Shown here one piece after another: positions 44,227-54,478 of a stretch of DNA of 64,000 nucleotides. Numbering within the stretch: the stretch's first letter is position 1; every line of letters starts with the position of its first letter. The notes beneath the pieces are model-generated. The model was not told the DNA's origin and searched no databases. It worked only from the letters and a program-made list of their open reading frames with translations. The position numbers and the translations under genes were made by a program. The stretch spans positions 961,501 to 1,025,500 of the forward strand of contig NZ_AP026867.1 of the NCBI RefSeq assembly GCF_026000115.1. The letters run 5' to 3'. Source of the stretch: Aureispira anguillae. Lineage in GTDB: Bacteria > Bacteroidota > Bacteroidia > Chitinophagales > Saprospiraceae.

Positions 44227-46035
44227 ATGAATATTTTAGTCATCAATTGTGGAAGTTCGTCTATCAAGGCAGCTGTTGTGAATAATGAGAATGGAAATTT
44301 TTTATTAACGATGCTCATTGAGCGGGTATTGGATAAGCCCCTAATTCACATTAACGAAACCGCTATTGATTGTCCAGAATCTGGGCACGAAGCCGTTTTG
44401 AATTTTTCATTGCCTTTGATTCAGGATTATTTGGGAGCGCATGAGTTGAATGGTGTAGGACATAGGGTCGTGCATGGAGGAGATAAATTTGATGCCCCTG
44501 TTTTGATTGATGAAACAGTAGAAAATGCAATAAAGGAGGTCAGTGTTTTGGCTCCTTTGCACAATCCTGTTAATCTGCTGGGAATTACTGTTGCCCGCCA
44601 AATATTTGATAATTTGCCTCATGTTGCTGTATTTGATACTTCCTTTCATCAGACCATGCCCAAACGAGCGGTTGCTTATGCTTTGCCCAAACAGTTGAGA
44701 GAAAAGCATGAACTTCGCCGATATGGATTTCATGGGACAAGTCATGAATATGTAGCAGAGTTGGCGGCAGCGCACTTGCAGACAGAGCTAAATATGGTAC
44801 GAATTATTACCTGTCATTTGGGAAGTGGTGCTAGTGTAGCAGCAGTAGAATATGGTCGTTCTGTTGAGACTTCTATGGGGATGACTCCATTAGAAGGTTT
44901 GATTATGGGGACACGCTCAGGTGATCTGGATCCTGGAATTTTGTTGCACATTGCTAGAGAAGAAGAATTGTCGATGAATGATTTAGATCAGTTGCTCAAT
45001 AAAAAAAGTGGTTTGCTTGGGCTTTCTGGGATCAGTAATGATATGCGGGATATTATAGAAAAATCGACTGTTGGGGATGAAGATTGTCGTTTGGCTTTGC
45101 AGGTGTTTACCCATCGTTTGCGCAAATACATAGGAGCTTATGCGGCAGTTATGGGAGGAGTTGATGCAATTGTATTTACAGGAGGAATTGGCGAAAATAG
45201 CCCTGTTGTTCGACATAGAGCAACACAGCGACTGGATTTTTTAGGGGCTATTATTAATGAAGACAAAAATCAGGATATTAAATTATCTGCGGAGCAGCCT
45301 GTTCAAGAATTTTCGATGAACCATAGCCGAGTTAAGCTCTTGGCAATTAGAACCAATGAGCAATTTGCTATTGCAAAAGAAGCAGTTCGAATTATAGAAG
45401 AAAAAACAAAGGTAAACACTGTGCCTACAATCCCTATTGCTGTATCTGGACGACATATCCACTTAACGCAAGAAGCTGTAGATGCACTATTTGGACAAGG
45501 TTATGAATTAACAGAAAAAGCACCACTATCACAACCAGGGCAATTTGCTTGCAATGAGCAGGTAACAATTGTTGGACCTAAAAATCAGATTGAACGAGTG
45601 CGTGTGCTGGGGCCTACCCGCTCCAAAAATCAATTAGAAATATCGAGAACAGATGAATTTTTCTTGGGGGTAGATGCCCCTGTTCGAGCATCGGGGAAGG
45701 TAGAAAATACGCCTGGCATCAAGTTAGTTGGTCCCAATGGAGCCTATGTTATGCAAGAAGGTGTTATTTGCGCTTGGAGGCATATTCACATGACTCCTGA
45801 GGATGCTCAAACTTTTGCTGTGCAGGACAAAGATATTGTGGATGTGGAGGTTAGCAATGGCTTACGTCCCTTAACATTTGGCAATGTATTGGTCAGAGTA
45901 TCGCCCAAATACAAGTTAGAAATGCATATTGATACAGACGAAGCTAATGCTGCTGAATTACCAAGGTATTCAGAGGGCGTATTAAACAAAACAGAAAGGA
46001 GTGCTCACCTTCTAAAAAAGAAGAAAAGGCACTGA
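44227..46035 (+). CDS. Acetate kinase fused to PduL-type phosphotransacylase
   Basis: From the ATG at 44227, about 602 residues. The longer frame from TTG 44188 adds 13 residues before the natural strand M-N-I-L-V-I-N-C-G-S-S-S. Residues about 1-390 are acetate kinase: G-H-R-V-V-H-G-G, F-D-T-S-F-H-Q-T-M-P, G-F-H-G-T-S-H, H-L-G-S-G-A-S, T-R-S-G-D-L-D-P-G, F-T-G-G-I-G-E-N. Residues about 400-590 are a PduL phosphate acyltransferase with its zinc-site motifs G-R-H-I-H-L-T and W-R-H-I-H-M-T and the segment L-G-P-T-R-S-K-N-Q-L-E-I-S. Together they convert acetyl-CoA or propionyl-CoA plus phosphate to acyl phosphate, then to acid plus ATP, and the reverse. A single chain could channel acetyl phosphate. 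Confidence 0.92.
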   Translation: MNILVINCGSSSIKAAVVNNENGNFLLTMLIERVLDKPLIHINETAIDCPESGHEAVLNFSLPLIQDYLGAHELNGVGHRVVHGGDKFDAPVLIDETVENAIKEVSVLAPLHNPVNLLGITVARQIFDNLPHVAVFDTSFHQTMPKRAVAYALPKQLREKHELRRYGFHGTSHEYVAELAAAHLQTELNMVRIITCHLGSGASVAAVEYGRSVETSMGMTPLEGLIMGTRSGDLDPGILLHIAREEELSMNDLDQLLNKKSGLLGLSGISNDMRDIIEKSTVGDEDCRLALQVFTHRLRKYIGAYAAVMGGVDAIVFTGGIGENSPVVRHRATQRLDFLGAIINEDKNQDIKLSAEQPVQEFSMNHSRVKLLAIRTNEQFAIAKEAVRIIEEKTKVNTVPTIPIAVSGRHIHLTQEAVDALFGQGYELTEKAPLSQPGQFACNEQVTIVGPKNQIERVRVLGPTRSKNQLEISRTDEFFLGVDAPVRASGKVENTPGIKLVGPNGAYVMQEGVICAWRHIHMTPEDAQTFAVQDKDIVDVEVSNGLRPLTFGNVLVRVSPKYKLEMHIDTDEANAAELPRYSEGVLNKTERSAHLLKKKKRH

Positions 46036-47762: not shown

Positions 47763-48842
47763 ATGGATTTAGATACAATAGATTCACATTTTCAAGATGT
47801 CAAAAATGTTGAGAATATCCCCATTGATCGACAGGTTTTACAAGTATTGGCTAAACACGGAACATTAACAGCCGAAGAACTTCAGTTAACTTACCAACAG
47901 AGTTCACTTTACCCTAAAAAAATAGAATGGCTAAATATTGCTTATCGTTTTTTTATGGGAGCAGGCTTATTGCTATTGCTTTCAGGGATTGTCTTTTTCT
48001 TTGCTTATAACTGGAGTGGATTGCACAAGTTTGCCAAATTAGGGCTTGTTGAATCAGGAATTATTATTATTGGCATTGCTTTGCTAAGTACAAAGACCTC
48101 AGACTTTGTGCTAAAGTTAGGGCTTACAGCAATTTCTGTTTTGGTTGGAGTTGCTTTTGCTGTATTTGGTCAGATTTATCAAACGGGGGCAGATGCCTAT
48201 GATTTTTTTCTGGGGTGGACTTTTTTTGTAACAGCATGGGTGGCTATTTCTAGTTTTCCATTTTTATGGATCTTTTATTTGATGTTGATTAACATCACTA
48301 CGCTGCTTTATTTTGAACAGGTGCAACTCTCCACAGAAACCTCTACCTTATTCTTTATTTTTGGTCTACTTAATGTATTGGCTTTGGCAATTTGGGAGTA
48401 TGTCATCCAAGGAGATAGAAAAAATTGGGTGCAGATTTTGTGTACTCGGTTAATCGGGGTTGCCATTGCTCTAATCTTGACAAATGCTGTGATTTATACT
48501 ATTTTTGATACACAAGATACAATTTTTGCTTGGTTAAATGTTGTGCTGTATGTAGGGGGTATGGTTATGGTAAAAATTTATTACAACGATCAAATTAGAG
48601 ATATTGGATTTGTTACAATAGGAGCCATTTCTTTACTGGTGATTGGCAATGCGCTGGTGCTAAAAACGTTAGACAGTGGCTCAGGTGATTTCATCGGAAT
48701 CTTCCTTTTATTGGGGATTGCCAATATAGTGGTTACCGTTGTATTAGTGATGAAACTAATACAATTAAGCAAGGATTGGAATCCAGAACAAGTCGATTTG
48801 TCAAACCATAAAATAGAGGCAACAGATGAGCAAGAAAAATAA
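47763..48842 (+). CDS. DUF2157 integral membrane protein
   Basis: 359 residues. A cytoplasmic N-terminal part of about 65 residues contains a helical I-D-R-Q-V-L-Q-V-L-A-K-H-G-T-L-T-A-E-E-L segment. Then about ten membrane segments begin I-E-W-L-N-I-A-Y-R-F-F-M-G-A-G with G-I-V-F-F-F-A-Y-N-W, the DUF2157 signature. The Gly near F-G-Q-I-Y-Q-T-G-A-D is also conserved in the family. Biochemical role unknown. It overlaps the DUF4401 gene by 17 bp. Together with the GDYXXLXY gene it forms a membrane triad found side by side in many bacteria, here extended by a sensor kinase and an exported protein. Confidence 0.88.
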   Translation: MDLDTIDSHFQDVKNVENIPIDRQVLQVLAKHGTLTAEELQLTYQQSSLYPKKIEWLNIAYRFFMGAGLLLLLSGIVFFFAYNWSGLHKFAKLGLVESGIIIIGIALLSTKTSDFVLKLGLTAISVLVGVAFAVFGQIYQTGADAYDFFLGWTFFVTAWVAISSFPFLWIFYLMLINITTLLYFEQVQLSTETSTLFFIFGLLNVLALAIWEYVIQGDRKNWVQILCTRLIGVAIALILTNAVIYTIFDTQDTIFAWLNVVLYVGGMVMVKIYYNDQIRDIGFVTIGAISLLVIGNALVLKTLDSGSGDFIGIFLLLGIANIVVTVVLVMKLIQLSKDWNPEQVDLSNHKIEATDEQEK

Positions 48843-49935
48843 AATGGGGTTAGTAGATCTATTGGAATGGTATAAAGAAGAAGGAATAAACCCTAAGCTT
48901 AATACGAAGGCTTTCCAGAGGGAGTATCATGACTCGGCGGCTAAAAAAACACCTATTTTAGTTCAGGTATTAATGTTTATTGGCTCAATATTAGGGGCGA
49001 TATTCTTTTTGGGATTTATGGCATTAAGTGAAGTTTTCCAATCTGAAATTTTTATTCTAATAACGGGGCTAATCATTGCCATTGTTGGGCTTACAATTCC
49101 TTATCAATCTAAACAAGAAGCAACTGCTGAACCTGTAGGAATGGCTTTGTTAATCGTAGGCTGTACTTTATTTACAATAGGTTTTATAAGCTATGGAAAT
49201 AATAGTTTCTTTACTTTTTTGATCTTATCTCTGATAACCTCTATCATAGTTGTTGTGATAGCGGGGAGTCATTTGCAAAAAATTTCAGCGGTTTTGTGTG
49301 CAAATTTATGTGCTTATTGGCTCATTTGGGAAATGAATTGGGGAGTTGGTTATAACTTTTTAGTCTTGTTAAATGCCTCTATTGCCACAATTGCTTGGTT
49401 AAAAGAACCTCAAATATTAGCGCAACAGTCTCGTTTGGGACAATGGTATGCTGCGATACTCAATGGTTGTTCGATTTCTATGATAGCAGTACTAGTCGGT
49501 TCTGTTAATATTTACCAGAATTACCATTGGGATGGAGTAACAATAAACCCGAGTTATTGGTGGCTCTCTTCCATTTTATTAGTTGCATTGGTTTTGTGGA
49601 CGTTAAGTGAAACGTTAGATCGAGTCGGCGAGAAAAATAAAAAAATTCCAATTTTGCTAGGAGCAGGTATTGCTTTATTGGTTCTGATCCAAGCACCTGG
49701 TATTGTGGCGGGGATTTTGTTGTTATTTTTGGGTGTTTATTCAAGCTATTATCTATTTGCTGGGCAAGGAATTTTAGCCATCTTCTTTTTTACAGGAATG
49801 TTCTATTATAATATGGAAACCACCCTATTGCTTAAATCCATATTAATGGTTAGTGCAGGGCTTATTTTTTTAGCCTTAGGTTATGGTATAAAAAGAGTAT
49901 ATGATCAGGATCGCACACTAAATTCAACGTTATGA
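48826..49935 (+). CDS. DUF4401 integral membrane protein
   Basis: 369 residues with about ten hydrophobic segments. The N-terminal cytoplasmic piece (L-L-E-W-Y-K-E-E-G-I) resembles in layout that of DUF2157. P-I-L-V-Q-V-L-M-F-I-G-S-I-L-G-A begins the membrane part, followed by F-L-G-F-M-A-L. This is the DUF4401 pattern, and DUF2157 and DUF4401 are distantly alike, so the pair may form a heteromer (inference). It overlaps both neighbours: 17 bp with the DUF2157 gene and 4 bp (ATGA) with the GDYXXLXY gene, so translation is coupled. Confidence 0.85.
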   Translation: MSKKNKMGLVDLLEWYKEEGINPKLNTKAFQREYHDSAAKKTPILVQVLMFIGSILGAIFFLGFMALSEVFQSEIFILITGLIIAIVGLTIPYQSKQEATAEPVGMALLIVGCTLFTIGFISYGNNSFFTFLILSLITSIIVVVIAGSHLQKISAVLCANLCAYWLIWEMNWGVGYNFLVLLNASIATIAWLKEPQILAQQSRLGQWYAAILNGCSISMIAVLVGSVNIYQNYHWDGVTINPSYWWLSSILLVALVLWTLSETLDRVGEKNKKIPILLGAGIALLVLIQAPGIVAGILLLFLGVYSSYYLFAGQGILAIFFFTGMFYYNMETTLLLKSILMVSAGLIFLALGYGIKRVYDQDRTLNSTL

Positions 49936-50438
49936 AAGGGTATAAAAGAATTATTTTTATCGTTAATTTATTGGCCGTGCTCGTTGTTTTTAATTGGATG
50001 ATTCTTCAAAAGGAACATACGATTAATAATGGAGAACTAGTTTTGCTAGAATTGTATCCGTTGGATCCCCGCTCTTTGATGCAAGGAGATTATATGAATT
50101 TGCGTTATGAAATGACTCGTCAATGGAATTTAAATGATTCTATACCAACAAGAGGTTATTGTATTTTAAGGAAAGGGAGCAATAATATAGGGAGTTTTGA
50201 ACGTTTACAAAGTAGCAGAACGCCTTTAGCATCCAATGAATTAGCAATTAAATATTATAGAACTGCTCATTTTGTGAAGATTGGGGCAGAATCATTTTTG
50301 TTTGAGGAGGGACAAGCAGAGACCTATGAACAGGCTAAATATGGAGGACTAAAAGTCGAGCCTAATGGTTCAGCGGTTTTGGTAGGGTTATACGATGCAA
50401 GCGGTACAAAAATTATCAGTAATTATGATATAGAGTAG
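49932..50438 (+). CDS. GDYXXLXY domain protein, membrane-anchored
   Basis: 168 residues. One N-terminal membrane segment (I-I-F-I-V-N-L-L-A-V-L-V-V-F-N-W-M-I-L), then a periplasmic domain starting L-V-L-L-E-L-Y-P-L-D-P-R-S-L-M-Q-G-D-Y-M-N-L-R-Y, which contains the signature G-D-Y-x-x-L-x-Y. The family almost always accompanies DUF2157/DUF4401 proteins, and its function is unknown. The start overlaps the DUF4401 stop by 4 bp, and the sensor kinase ATG follows its stop after 2 bp. Confidence 0.88.
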   Translation: MKGYKRIIFIVNLLAVLVVFNWMILQKEHTINNGELVLLELYPLDPRSLMQGDYMNLRYEMTRQWNLNDSIPTRGYCILRKGSNNIGSFERLQSSRTPLASNELAIKYYRTAHFVKIGAESFLFEEGQAETYEQAKYGGLKVEPNGSAVLVGLYDASGTKIISNYDIE

Positions 50439-50440
50439 GC

Positions 50441-53281
50441 ATGAAGGAAGATTTTTTGAATCAAAATTATAAGGATAAGGATACAGACGGTGCGTTCAAA
50501 CGTGTTTTTGATCTGTCTCCTGATGCTATGCTGAAGATTAGAACAGCAGATTTTAGATTAATTGCAGCTAATCAGCAGGCCTGCCATTTATATGGCTATA
50601 CTAATAGCGAGTTTGGTGCCTCAGAGATTAATGACTTGGGATTGGATGAAATGGTTTTGCAAAAAATCATAGAGGTATCTAGTGATTATGCTATTGGTCA
50701 AATTATAGAACTAGAAGGGGTTAGTAAACAAAAGAATGGCACCTTATTTCCCGTGCAGATTCGATACTGTAAAACGGATGAAAAATATGCATTAGCGGTC
50801 ATTAGAAGACTGTCTACATCACAAGAAATAAAAACGGTCAATGCTAACTTTTCAAAGGTTTTGGCACTTAAGGAACAGCAAAATAAAAAGCTCCAACTCA
50901 ATAGAGATATTTTGAGATTGGTTACCCAGCATCAGCCTTTACCAGATGTTTTGGATGCTATGGCTCAACGCCTAGAAGATTTGGTAGAGGGGATGAAGGT
51001 GGCGATACTTTTGTTAGAGGGGGCTCAACTTTTTGTTGGGGCAGCTCCTACTTTGCCCAAGAAATTCTTGGATGCTCTTGATGGAATTCATGTAGGTCCT
51101 TATAGTGTTCCTTGTGCTCATGCTGTTTATTTTAAGAAGCAGATTATCATTGAGAATATAGAGACTGACCCAACTTGTATGAATTGCAGAGATTTTTGCT
51201 TAATGCATGATGTAAGGGCTTGTTGGTCAACTCCTATTATCTCTTCTGAGGGGCTTGTTTTGGGAACATTTGCTATGTGTTGGGCAGAGCCTCAAAAAAC
51301 TACGACCGAGACGCTAGACTTAATTACTATGGCGATAAACTTGGCAGAAATAGCGATTGAGCAGAGTTATTATCAAGAAAGTCTCACAGCAATCAATGAA
51401 GAGTACATTCTTCAAAACAAAGAATTAGAACTGGCTAAATTACAACTAGAAGAAGATAAAAAAATAGTACTTGATCGAGAACATAAGTTGAAGGAAGGGC
51501 AGCGTTTGTCCAAAGTTGGGAGCTGGGAGTTTAATTTTAAAACTAGAGAATTGATTTGGTCTGAGGAGCAGTATCGTATCTATGAACTAACAGGTATTGC
51601 TAGTGTTGAATTGTATGATGCATATCAGGCTAGAATTCACCCAGAAGATAGAGAAATAAAAAAAACGGCTTATCGTAATTCAATTAATGGTAGCAAGAGG
51701 TTCAATTATGAACATCGTATTGTAACAGGCGATGGACAGACTAAATATATATTGGGCGTTGGTAAGCTAGAAACCAACGATTCGGGAGAACCTCTTTTTT
51801 TAAAAGGAACGGATCAGGATGTAACCGAATTAAAATTGGCTCAACAGGCAGCTTGGGAAAATGAATTCAAATTAAATGAGTTGATGTCTAATATTAACGA
51901 AATTGTATTTATTGTTGATCTTAGAGATAGTACTCAATATGATAATCCCATTACTTACATTAATGGCGATACCGTTGAAATTTTTGGATATACACACCAA
52001 GAATTAAAAGACATCGTTAACTTATGGGTAGATCGTATTCATCCTGAAGATCTTCAATCTGTTATAGAAAAAAGCGAAATACTGCATCAATACAAAAGAC
52101 AAGTAACTAGAGAATATCGGTTTAAACACAAAAAAGGGCATTATTTATGGATCGAAGATAATATTTCGATAGGGGGAAATGATGATAAATACTCTAAATT
52201 GTATGGGAGTGCTCGTGATATTACCAAACGTAAAAAATCAGAAGCGGCTTTATTAGAAAGTAAAGAGCGGTTGCAGTTGGCAACCCAAGCTGCAAAATTG
52301 GGAAGTTATGATTGGCGGGTAAAAGAGAATTACATACATTGGGACGATAGAATGTATGAGATCTTCGGCTTAGATAGAAAGCCCGAAATAAAGGATAAGC
52401 GGAGTTATGTTATGTCTGTTATGCATCCAGATGATCGAGAACGCATAAACAAGGCTTTTGCAAAAAACTTGGTATCCAGTGATGTCCTTATCAATTTTAA
52501 GAATGAGTATAGAATTGTATTAAATGAAAAAAACAGATACATAGAAAGTTATGTGATCTTTTTTAGAGATCGAAAAGGAAGGGTAGATCGTGTAATCGGA
52601 ACTTGTTTGGATGTAACGGAACGGAAGGAAGCCGAGGCGCTTTTGATTTCTAATGAAGAAAAGGATGTATTGCTTAAAGAGATTCATCATAGAGTAAAAA
52701 ATAATTTACAAGTTATTACCAGCCTTTTGAGTTTGCAATCCAGTTATTTGGCTAGTAATGAGCAAAGGAAGCTTTTTACAGATAGTCAGTACAGGATTAA
52801 TTCAATGGCAATGGTACACGAAATGCTTTACCAGTCTGACAATCTCTCTAAAGTGGATTATCAAGATTATTTAAGCGAATTGAGTCAGTTTTTGATTCGT
52901 TCTGTAAAAGGAAGCTCCAATAATATCCATTTGATTTTAGATGTGCCTAAAATGAGCTTAGGAATAGATACTGCGATTCCCCTTGGTCTCTTGATTAATG
53001 AGGTGTTAACAAATTCACTTAAGTATGGAGTTCAGGGAAATGATAAAGGAACCATTAGCATCAAAATAAGGAGAAAAATCAATGACAAAAGCGAAAAGCC
53101 ATCGTTTGTCTTAGAAATAGGTGATGATGGAGCAGGCTACCCCGATACCATTAATTTTAGAAATTCAAACTCACTGGGGTTAAAATTAATTCATAACTTA
53201 ACCCGCCAATTAGAGGGAACCTTAGAGAAAGATAATACTCGAAAAGGAACCAATTACATCATCTGTTTTAACGAAATATAA
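50441..53281 (+). CDS. Cytoplasmic multi-PAS/GAF sensor histidine kinase (HisKA_2 type)
   Basis: 946 residues without membrane segments. In order: PAS (about 15-130; N-x-x-A-C-H-L-Y-G-Y); GAF (about 155-310) with a Cys-rich stretch (V-P-C-A-H-A, then C-M-N-C-R-D-F-C near 245); coiled coil (320-355); three PAS domains (about 355-470, 475-600, 605-730), each with H-P-E/D-D and a closing D-V/I-T-E/K-R/L; HisKA_2 K-E-I-H-H-R-V-K-N-N with His749 or His750 as phosphoacceptor; HATPase with L-L-I-N-E-V-L-T-N-S-L-K-Y (N box), G-D-D-G-A-G and S-L-G-L-K-L-I. There is no receiver domain, and no response regulator gene in the window. Tight packing with the DUF2157-DUF4401-GDYXXLXY genes (2-bp gap) suggests it senses for, or is controlled by, that membrane complex. 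The Cys cluster could bind metal, haem or react to redox; this is inference. Confidence 0.9.
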   Translation: MKEDFLNQNYKDKDTDGAFKRVFDLSPDAMLKIRTADFRLIAANQQACHLYGYTNSEFGASEINDLGLDEMVLQKIIEVSSDYAIGQIIELEGVSKQKNGTLFPVQIRYCKTDEKYALAVIRRLSTSQEIKTVNANFSKVLALKEQQNKKLQLNRDILRLVTQHQPLPDVLDAMAQRLEDLVEGMKVAILLLEGAQLFVGAAPTLPKKFLDALDGIHVGPYSVPCAHAVYFKKQIIIENIETDPTCMNCRDFCLMHDVRACWSTPIISSEGLVLGTFAMCWAEPQKTTTETLDLITMAINLAEIAIEQSYYQESLTAINEEYILQNKELELAKLQLEEDKKIVLDREHKLKEGQRLSKVGSWEFNFKTRELIWSEEQYRIYELTGIASVELYDAYQARIHPEDREIKKTAYRNSINGSKRFNYEHRIVTGDGQTKYILGVGKLETNDSGEPLFLKGTDQDVTELKLAQQAAWENEFKLNELMSNINEIVFIVDLRDSTQYDNPITYINGDTVEIFGYTHQELKDIVNLWVDRIHPEDLQSVIEKSEILHQYKRQVTREYRFKHKKGHYLWIEDNISIGGNDDKYSKLYGSARDITKRKKSEAALLESKERLQLATQAAKLGSYDWRVKENYIHWDDRMYEIFGLDRKPEIKDKRSYVMSVMHPDDRERINKAFAKNLVSSDVLINFKNEYRIVLNEKNRYIESYVIFFRDRKGRVDRVIGTCLDVTERKEAEALLISNEEKDVLLKEIHHRVKNNLQVITSLLSLQSSYLASNEQRKLFTDSQYRINSMAMVHEMLYQSDNLSKVDYQDYLSELSQFLIRSVKGSSNNIHLILDVPKMSLGIDTAIPLGLLINEVLTNSLKYGVQGNDKGTISIKIRRKINDKSEKPSFVLEIGDDGAGYPDTINFRNSNSLGLKLIHNLTRQLEGTLEKDNTRKGTNYIICFNEI

Positions 53282-54372
53282 TGTTATACTTTCTGTTTTG
53301 TCTACTTTTTGCTGTTACGGCTGCCGCCAATCCCATAGAGCCTATTATTGTTACGGAGCAAACATTACAGATAAATGGAGAACAGCGATTTTTCTTTGCT
53401 TTTGAGGCAGGAGATGAGATGCTTATTGATTTATCAATGCTTAAAGGAAAATCAATAAAAGAATTCGAAATCTTAAAATACCCTGAGTCTAGCAAATTTC
53501 AAACGTTGCATTTAGAAGAACTTAACGGGAAAAAAATTCGAGTTTTTGATCGAGCTGTCTATGAGTTTAGGCTCAAATCAGGAGGAGCCAAACGATTAAG
53601 GTTTAAAATTCAGCGAGTTCCCTATTCTAGTGCTCGAATTAATTTTGATACGCATGTCAAATGGAAAACTGTTACGGATAGTATTCGTCGAAATTATAGT
53701 GAAAAAATTAATGTAATTTACGATACAACCTACCTTACCAAATACCGCAAAGTGCTCCAAAAAACTAATCTCAACGTTATTGATGTTGCCAACCAAGAAG
53801 AGCGGGTACATTCTAGAACAAATCTAACGAATGACAATGTCAATACCCTAACATTTAATTTGCCTCCATCTAAAAAAGAATTGTTGTTTGAAAAAAAAGT
53901 TATTGGCTGGGCTTATTGGATCGGGGTAGGTCAAGAAGGAACAGAAAATTATAATCGAGAATTAAAAAAATTCTTACAAACAGCAGCAACCAAAGTAGTC
54001 ACTAAAAATTTATTGGCAGGATTGGCATTGGGGATATATGCAGTGACGCTTAATCCTCCTAAGGGGGAAAATATTCATTATGAATTGACGGTTCAGCATA
54101 AACAAAAAAATCAACAAGTTGCAAAGGGGAATATAACCTCAACATTTGGTAGAGAATTACAGTTCTTAGAGGGCAAAGTAATTGTAAAATTGGATAATGA
54201 CAATTTTATCAATGGCTTGAATGTAAAGGTGAAAATATCAGCGGTAGTAGAAGAACAATACTACAGAATGGAAGGTTATCAAGTCCGTCAAATTACACCA
54301 ATAGAATTAAAAAATATTAAAGGAAGAGTGGTGCTTAGAAAACGAGAGGTGCCTGTTATTAATGCTTGGTAA
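53281..54372 (+). CDS. Exported protein of unknown function, last gene of the five-gene operon
   Basis: 363 residues. Signal peptide at 1-17 (F-A-V-T-A-A-A-N). The mature part starts with a beta-rich domain (I-I-V-T-E-Q-T-L-Q-I-N-G-E-Q-R-F-F-F-A-F-E-A-G-D), then a mixed region that includes a hydrophobic stretch near 240-256 (N-L-L-A-G-L-A-L-G-I-Y-A-V-T-L). It ends with more strands and a basic tail. I do not recognise a family. The start codon A is the last base of the kinase stop codon (TAATG), so translation is coupled. The N-terminal domain could be a jelly-roll sensor domain, but that is a guess. Confidence 0.65.
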   Translation: MLYFLFCLLFAVTAAANPIEPIIVTEQTLQINGEQRFFFAFEAGDEMLIDLSMLKGKSIKEFEILKYPESSKFQTLHLEELNGKKIRVFDRAVYEFRLKSGGAKRLRFKIQRVPYSSARINFDTHVKWKTVTDSIRRNYSEKINVIYDTTYLTKYRKVLQKTNLNVIDVANQEERVHSRTNLTNDNVNTLTFNLPPSKKELLFEKKVIGWAYWIGVGQEGTENYNRELKKFLQTAATKVVTKNLLAGLALGIYAVTLNPPKGENIHYELTVQHKQKNQQVAKGNITSTFGRELQFLEGKVIVKLDNDNFINGLNVKVKISAVVEEQYYRMEGYQVRQITPIELKNIKGRVVLRKREVPVINAW

Positions 54373-54384
54373 ATAGGAAAAATA

Positions 54385-54432
54385 CAAAGGGTTGGTCAAA
54401 GGGTTGGTCAAAGGGTTGGTCAAAGGGTTGGG
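54385..54432 (+). repeat. Four tandem copies of a 12-bp terminator arm
   Basis: CAAAGGGTTGGT occurs at 54385-54396, 54397-54408 and 54409-54420, with a fourth copy ending in G at 54421-54432. The fourth copy is the left arm of the terminator hairpin; the others can also pair with the right arms. Confidence 0.95.
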
Positions 54433-54478
54433 GCAAACCAATGTGTTTGCCCCAACCCTTTATCCCAACCCTTTTTTT
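54422..54478. terminator. Very strong bidirectional terminator with duplicated right arm
   Basis: AAAGGGTTGGGGCAAAC (54422-54438) pairs perfectly over 17 bp with 54445-54461, loop CAATGT. A second right-arm copy CCCAACCCTTT lies at 54464-54474 and runs into T7. It separates the five-gene operon from the convergent nucleoside phosphorylase gene. Confidence 0.93.

Follow-up and report, generated by a model that had tools for sequence, protein, structure and literature searches.

Loci of Bacteroidota that carry neighbouring genes of the families DUF2157 (PF09925), DUF4401 (PF14351) and GDYXXLXY (PF14345), hereafter the triad, and the Lia and phage-shock (PSP) systems are the described systems with which we compare a putative five-gene operon of Aureispira anguillae. 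The operon lies in a 64,000-nucleotide stretch of contig NZ_AP026867.1 (positions 961,501 to 1,025,500 of the forward strand; hereafter the window) and joins a triad to a histidine kinase and an apparently exported protein, P5. The triad is most likely an old, self-contained unit of Bacteroidota. We found no published function for it in the open-licence literature, and the accessible portions of the family papers cited here do not mention it as a set. The available text of one study reports a GDYXXLXY protein as one of 16 proteins that co-purified with both FtsX and EnvC in Fusobacterium nucleatum (PMC5915739), that of another has a GDYXXLXY protein in the table of an F. nucleatum RNA-sequencing experiment (PMC9848294), and that of a third names DUF2157 as the N-terminal transmembrane part of LiaF (PMC11237479). 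The window resembles the Bacteroidota triad loci in having all three genes in the same order, with mostly short overlaps and the GDYXXLXY motif, but differs in what follows them: elsewhere the gene behind GDYXXLXY varies (DNA methylase, HAD, GNAT, ATP-grasp and others). As in Lia and phage-shock systems, a DUF2157-type membrane domain is found near a histidine kinase, the window's DUF2157 domain (residues 37-169) being likened to the LiaF N-terminus by the description in the accessible part of PMC11237479 and not by alignment. Unlike Lia and PSP loci, however, the nine genes scanned with Pfam at the window (the five operon genes and four neighbours) include no PspA, PspC or Toastrack; Lia and PSP kinases are paired with a response regulator of their own, whereas no receiver domain was detected among these nine genes; and LiaS is described as membrane-bound in the same partial source, whereas the window kinase appears soluble and is of the HisKA_2 type.

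Five consecutive plus-strand genes at 47763-54372, encoding DUF2157, DUF4401 and GDYXXLXY proteins, the kinase and P5, most likely form one operon that, as far as our searches reach, is confined to some members of the genus Aureispira. All three triad families score above their Pfam cut-offs, as does the kinase, in agreement with the family calls that the initial annotation had made for the first four genes; the junctions it had given, a 17-bp overlap, a 4-bp overlap (ATGA), a 2-bp gap and a 1-bp overlap (TAATG), proved exact to the base, and such overlaps suggest translational coupling of the five genes. We lean towards seeing in the locus a co-expressed module associated with the envelope, with the kinase and the exported protein as lineage-specific accessories and not as obligatory parts of the triad. 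In such a module the multi-pass DUF2157 and DUF4401 proteins and the single-pass GDYXXLXY subunit would assemble as one membrane complex; the soluble HisKA_2 kinase would read cytoplasmic signals through its PAS and GAF domains and act through a response regulator encoded elsewhere in the genome; and P5, which comes from a separate Saprospirales family, would be exported. A functional link between triad, kinase and P5 is plausible. The operon offers a concrete entry point to a triad for which we found no published function: If the link to the kinase is true, the role of the triad becomes testable, and if not, accessory genes have joined an old unit.

Within the genus the arrangement recurs. 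Among nine Aureispira genomes (that of the window and eight others, with kinase orthologs called at E <= 1e-100), GDYXXLXY is present in six, P5 in six and the kinase in five, and all five genes occur in the same order in five of the nine: the window's own genome, G008, G003, G001 and G006, the P5 of the last being cut by a contig end. The linkage therefore extends beyond a single genome, to which the initial annotation had considered that it might be confined. DUF2157/DUF4401 junctions measure -17 bp in the window, -11 bp in both G008 and G003, +77 bp in G001 and -14 bp in G006, and DUF4401/GDYXXLXY junctions -4, +5, +5, -4 and -4 bp in the same sequence of genomes; the GDYXXLXY/kinase junction is +2 bp in the window and +1 bp in the other four copies, and the kinase/P5 junction -1 bp in the window and 0 bp in the other four. 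The window's five proteins share 54-72% identity with those of G008, G001 and G006, and nonsynonymous divergence (dN) of 0.21-0.38 against synonymous divergence (dS) of 1.4-3.5 or not computable indicates purifying selection on every operon gene. Tight junctions kept at such divergence are better evidence than gene order, and argue for joint transcription. The genus also holds exceptions. In G004 the triad sits at the same place (after an AckA-PTAC gene, a small gene and an aminotransferase) with different genes downstream, and in the Aureispira metagenome-assembled genome L065 it is followed by a DUF4349 protein with no kinase in view; G002 has P5 without a triad, and both GDYXXLXY and the kinase are missing from G005 and G007. 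Behind the lone P5 of G002, 122 bp downstream, lies a gene for a 176-amino-acid receiver-domain protein (L028:10160-10690).

Outside Aureispira the arrangement dissolves. The 51 non-Aureispira genomes of a 60-genome set contain P5 in six cases, GDYXXLXY in five and both in none, and no kinase ortholog at E <= 1e-100. In a phylum sample, PF14345 was found in 23 of 395 genomes; of the 22 besides the window's own, 21 were inspected (G360 was left out). A collection of 25 loci held neither a kinase core of the operon type nor P5 within six genes. Likewise, no operon-type kinase or P5 lay within five genes at any of 75 named GDYXXLXY loci from outside Aureispira, although in two of them (L075 and L121) the contig ends directly behind GDYXXLXY; the two collections overlap in part, with at least three genomes in both. 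Among all 80 named loci, kinase and P5 together occurred within five genes only in L061-L063, all Aureispira (the records L062, L064, L061 and L063 correspond to G001, G004, G006 and G008). A same-strand gene begins no more than 60 bp behind GDYXXLXY in 34 of the 80. Pfam assigned a family to 14 out of 20 downstream neighbours, and most of these are enzymes: two DNA methylases, HAD, GNAT, ATP-grasp, a metallo-beta-lactamase fold, a thioredoxin-like protein, UbiE, a decarboxylase and an amidohydrolase, next to one DinB and one DUF4349. The others, at L041, are a His_kinase gene and the LytTR regulator that belongs to it, a pair that begins 272 bp behind GDYXXLXY. Across 100 loci other than L061-L064, searched with purpose-built profiles, signalling genes were not enriched near the triad (5/568 within three genes versus 5/1084 farther away, p = 0.33), in a test whose ten signalling genes in all give it low power. 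The neighbour survey and this lack of enrichment indicate that most of the hosts examined have a triad without an adjoining kinase; the survey is evidence against a general association of the triad with kinase and P5 across Bacteroidota, and the conserved linkage to the kinase and the 363-residue protein that the initial annotation had proposed to look for in the phylum was not found at these loci.

The triad, by comparison, holds together. DUF2157 and DUF4401 are fused in one open reading frame of 620 amino acids in L037, and DUF4401 and GDYXXLXY in one of 881 amino acids in L051 (7283-9928); because these pairs occur as single chains in two genomes, the three proteins most likely form one physical complex. 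By hydropathy, the DUF2157 protein of the window has about nine hydrophobic segments and the DUF4401 protein about eight to nine; we looked for relatedness between the two and detected none. The GDYXXLXY protein has a single hydrophobic segment (residues 7-25) inside a long N-terminal helix (2-33), followed by a beta-rich domain that is presumably periplasmic. Its AlphaFold2 model, built from a 53-sequence alignment, reached a predicted local distance difference test (pLDDT) value of 86 and a predicted template modelling (pTM) score of 0.76, and comparison of this model with folds in the PDB gave no convincing match. The family motif reads GDYMNLRY in the window; G52, D53, L57 and Y59 are the same in all 53 sequences, and Y54 in nearly all.

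P5 leads a life of its own in the order Saprospirales. Its family has matches in 41 of 298 genomes of the order, some of them partial (the N-terminal third or another part), and at all 27 P5 loci examined that are not operon copies (seven from the 60-genome set and 20 from an order-wide search with a P5 profile built from 11 family members) there was no triad gene within four genes and no such kinase anywhere in the locus. The window protein has a hydrophobic N-terminal stretch, seen by hydropathy and by eye, and a marginal one at 239-257; from the former it is apparently exported. It returned no significant family in Pfam, NCBIfam or PADLOC. The nearest described proteins are those of the GOLD/emp24-gp25L type, to whose domain model the N-terminal region of two of the 11 family members gave a match (PF01105; L034 at 6.8e-07, above the cut-off, and L032 at 0.0037, below it), whereas the window P5 alone gave no significant Pfam match, GOLD included, and no relative of its C-terminal half was found by sequence. 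It is possible that the N-terminal domain is a GOLD-like sandwich. Positions invariant across the 11 members include G44-D45, W210 and N306-D307-N308.

The surveys outside the genus are what incline us to treat kinase and P5 as accessories, but several observations weigh against doing so, or thin the evidence behind it. G003 and G008 are near identical, so that the independent copies of the operon number about four at most, and G001 and G006 are also less diverged from each other (dS 0.6-1.1 over the five genes). The P5 of the window is 68-70% identical to that of the other operon copies, unlike an idle passenger. Finally, the G004 triad is followed, after 188 bp, by a short open reading frame, receiver-like genes, a CheR-like frame and, where the contig ends, a truncated PAS protein (names given by eye). 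Within G004 the PAS_3 region of the window kinase matches this fragment best (103 bits), and a search with the fragment leads back to the operon kinases as top matches in G000, G001, G003 and G006, making the pair reciprocal best matches. A kinase-related PAS protein behind this triad may mean that the bond between triad and kinase is firmer than the word accessory allows, although the G004 contig ends ahead of any kinase core. By eye, the receiver-like, CheR-like and PAS pieces of this region (L035:1-3000), which comes from a fragmented assembly, seem to be in part decayed or chimeric.

How the kinase is built bears on the first of the rival explanations. It shows no obvious membrane segment by hydropathy, with one marginal hydrophobic stretch within the GAF domain. 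Its HisKA_2 domain is clear (PF07568, 1.5e-27), and because the H, N and G boxes, judged by eye, are intact in five of five orthologs the enzyme is likely active. In the PDB, the core is closest to entries named blue-light-activated histidine kinases, and its NCBIfam matches include PhyK (122 bits, cut-off 750) and a blue-light kinase (85 bits, cut-off 450); no kinase equivalog reached its NCBIfam cut-off, the PAS domain model TIGR00229 being the only one that did. The window kinase thus has a HisKA_2 and ATPase core in common with PhyK and the blue-light kinases, but differs from them in its multi-PAS/GAF front end and in its operon without a regulator. A search of the own genome with the GAF region (E <= 0.001) found no second match.

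With such a kinase beside it, the triad could belong to a dedicated sensing system, in which it would detect the state of the envelope, the PAS/GAF kinase would read its conformation or product in the cytoplasm, and P5 would be the exported ligand, adaptor or effector, much as LiaF, a membrane protein of DUF2157 type, acts together with the kinase and regulator LiaRS. We consider this rather unlikely, and the complete sensing or envelope-stress system that the initial annotation had proposed is a guess. The idea gains from junctions that stay tight despite high divergence, from the placing of DUF2157 in the LiaF N-terminus in the available text of PMC11237479, and from the fact that all six GDYXXLXY-bearing genomes among the nine Aureispira searched have downstream either the kinase or, in G004, its reciprocal-best PAS protein. 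It loses from the unenriched surroundings of GDYXXLXY in the low-power test above, from the lack of a response regulator among the nine scanned genes, from the solubility of the kinase, from the poor conservation of the cysteines proposed as its sensor, from the triad of L065 with its DUF4349 neighbour, and from the end of the G004 contig before any kinase core. A still more specific version, which we think unlikely, would have the Aureispira triad serve as membrane sensor in a kinase pathway of a new type, with a LiaF-like complex and its periplasmic GDYXXLXY domain signalling to the soluble multi-PAS/GAF HisKA_2 kinase and an exported GOLD-like partner outside; if true, this would be the first functional setting for the three families as a set.

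The genes might instead stand together only through genus-wide collinearity of the whole chromosome stretch, an explanation that we hold to be improbable. Counting open reading frames of at least 80 amino acids, we found that 28 of the 30 window genes from 12977 to 54372, plainly unrelated ones included, have a reciprocal match within one 100-kb stretch of G003 and keep their order there, and the AckA-PTAC gene, small gene and aminotransferase keep their place upstream of the triad in G001, G003, G004, G006 and G008. Since the operon forms the end of this collinear block of 41 kb, its conserved order is by itself weak evidence of joint function. However, the junctions around the kinase stay within 2 bp even though synonymous sites have come close to saturation, or reached it, between the window and the other copies; the collinearity with G003 stops right behind P5 (none of the ten window genes after P5, nor of the nine before 12977, has a reciprocal match in that stretch), so that the block ends at the operon edge; and GDYXXLXY and kinase are jointly missing from G002, G005 and G007, where other genes follow the aminotransferase. 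A reading of the kinase as a redox or metal sensor built on a cysteine cluster is not borne out by conservation: The C-x-x-C-x-x-x-C that the initial annotation had pointed out is present in the GAF domain of the window kinase (C246, C249 and C253), but C246 is replaced by Tyr and C253 by Ala in all four other orthologs aligned, whereas C225, C249 and C261 of the region are retained in five of five.

The features of the operon are collected below.

Coordinates of the operon and its terminator (positions in the window)
Feature	Position	Strand	Basis
DUF2157 multi-pass membrane protein, 359 amino acids	47763..48842	+	Pfam PF09925 2e-19, residues 37-169
DUF4401 multi-pass membrane protein, 369 amino acids	48826..49935	+	Pfam PF14351 8.8e-34; 17-bp overlap with DUF2157 gene
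GDYXXLXY protein, 168 amino acids	49932..50438	+	Pfam PF14345 3.4e-37; ATGA 4-bp overlap with DUF4401 gene
Histidine kinase, 946 amino acids, PAS - GAF - PAS_3 x3 - HisKA_2 - HATPase	50441..53281	+	Pfam
GAF domain of kinase with non-conserved C-x-x-C-x-x-x-C	50936..51361	+	Pfam GAF_2, residues 166-307; ortholog alignment
HisKA_2 and ATPase core of kinase	52679..53266	+	Pfam, residues 747-821 and 846-942
P5, apparently exported, 363 amino acids, Saprospirales family without Pfam model	53281..54372	+	TAATG 1-bp overlap with kinase gene
Intrinsic terminator	54410..54475	+	-45.8 kcal/mol hairpin with terminal T tract

The very strong terminator that had been noted behind the operon is borne out by this hairpin, a 17-bp stem within a 10-bp outer stem that ends in T7. 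Three of these T residues are base-paired in the outer stem, and the hairpin is absent from the output of a consensus terminator scanner. At 54386-54431, ahead of and inside the 5' side of the hairpin, the motif AAAGGGTTGGTC is repeated in tandem, three times in full and a fourth time in part, and the stems of the hairpin are built from this same motif. The window lies on a 7.6-Mb contig of a 7.8-Mb genome. Upstream of the triad, the AckA-PTAC gene (44188-46035) encodes a 615-amino-acid fusion of an acetate kinase (residues 16-397, 4e-135) with a PTAC/PduL-type phosphate acyltransferase (416-591, 2.7e-80), and the same fusion is also present in L035 (G004) and L166 (G002).

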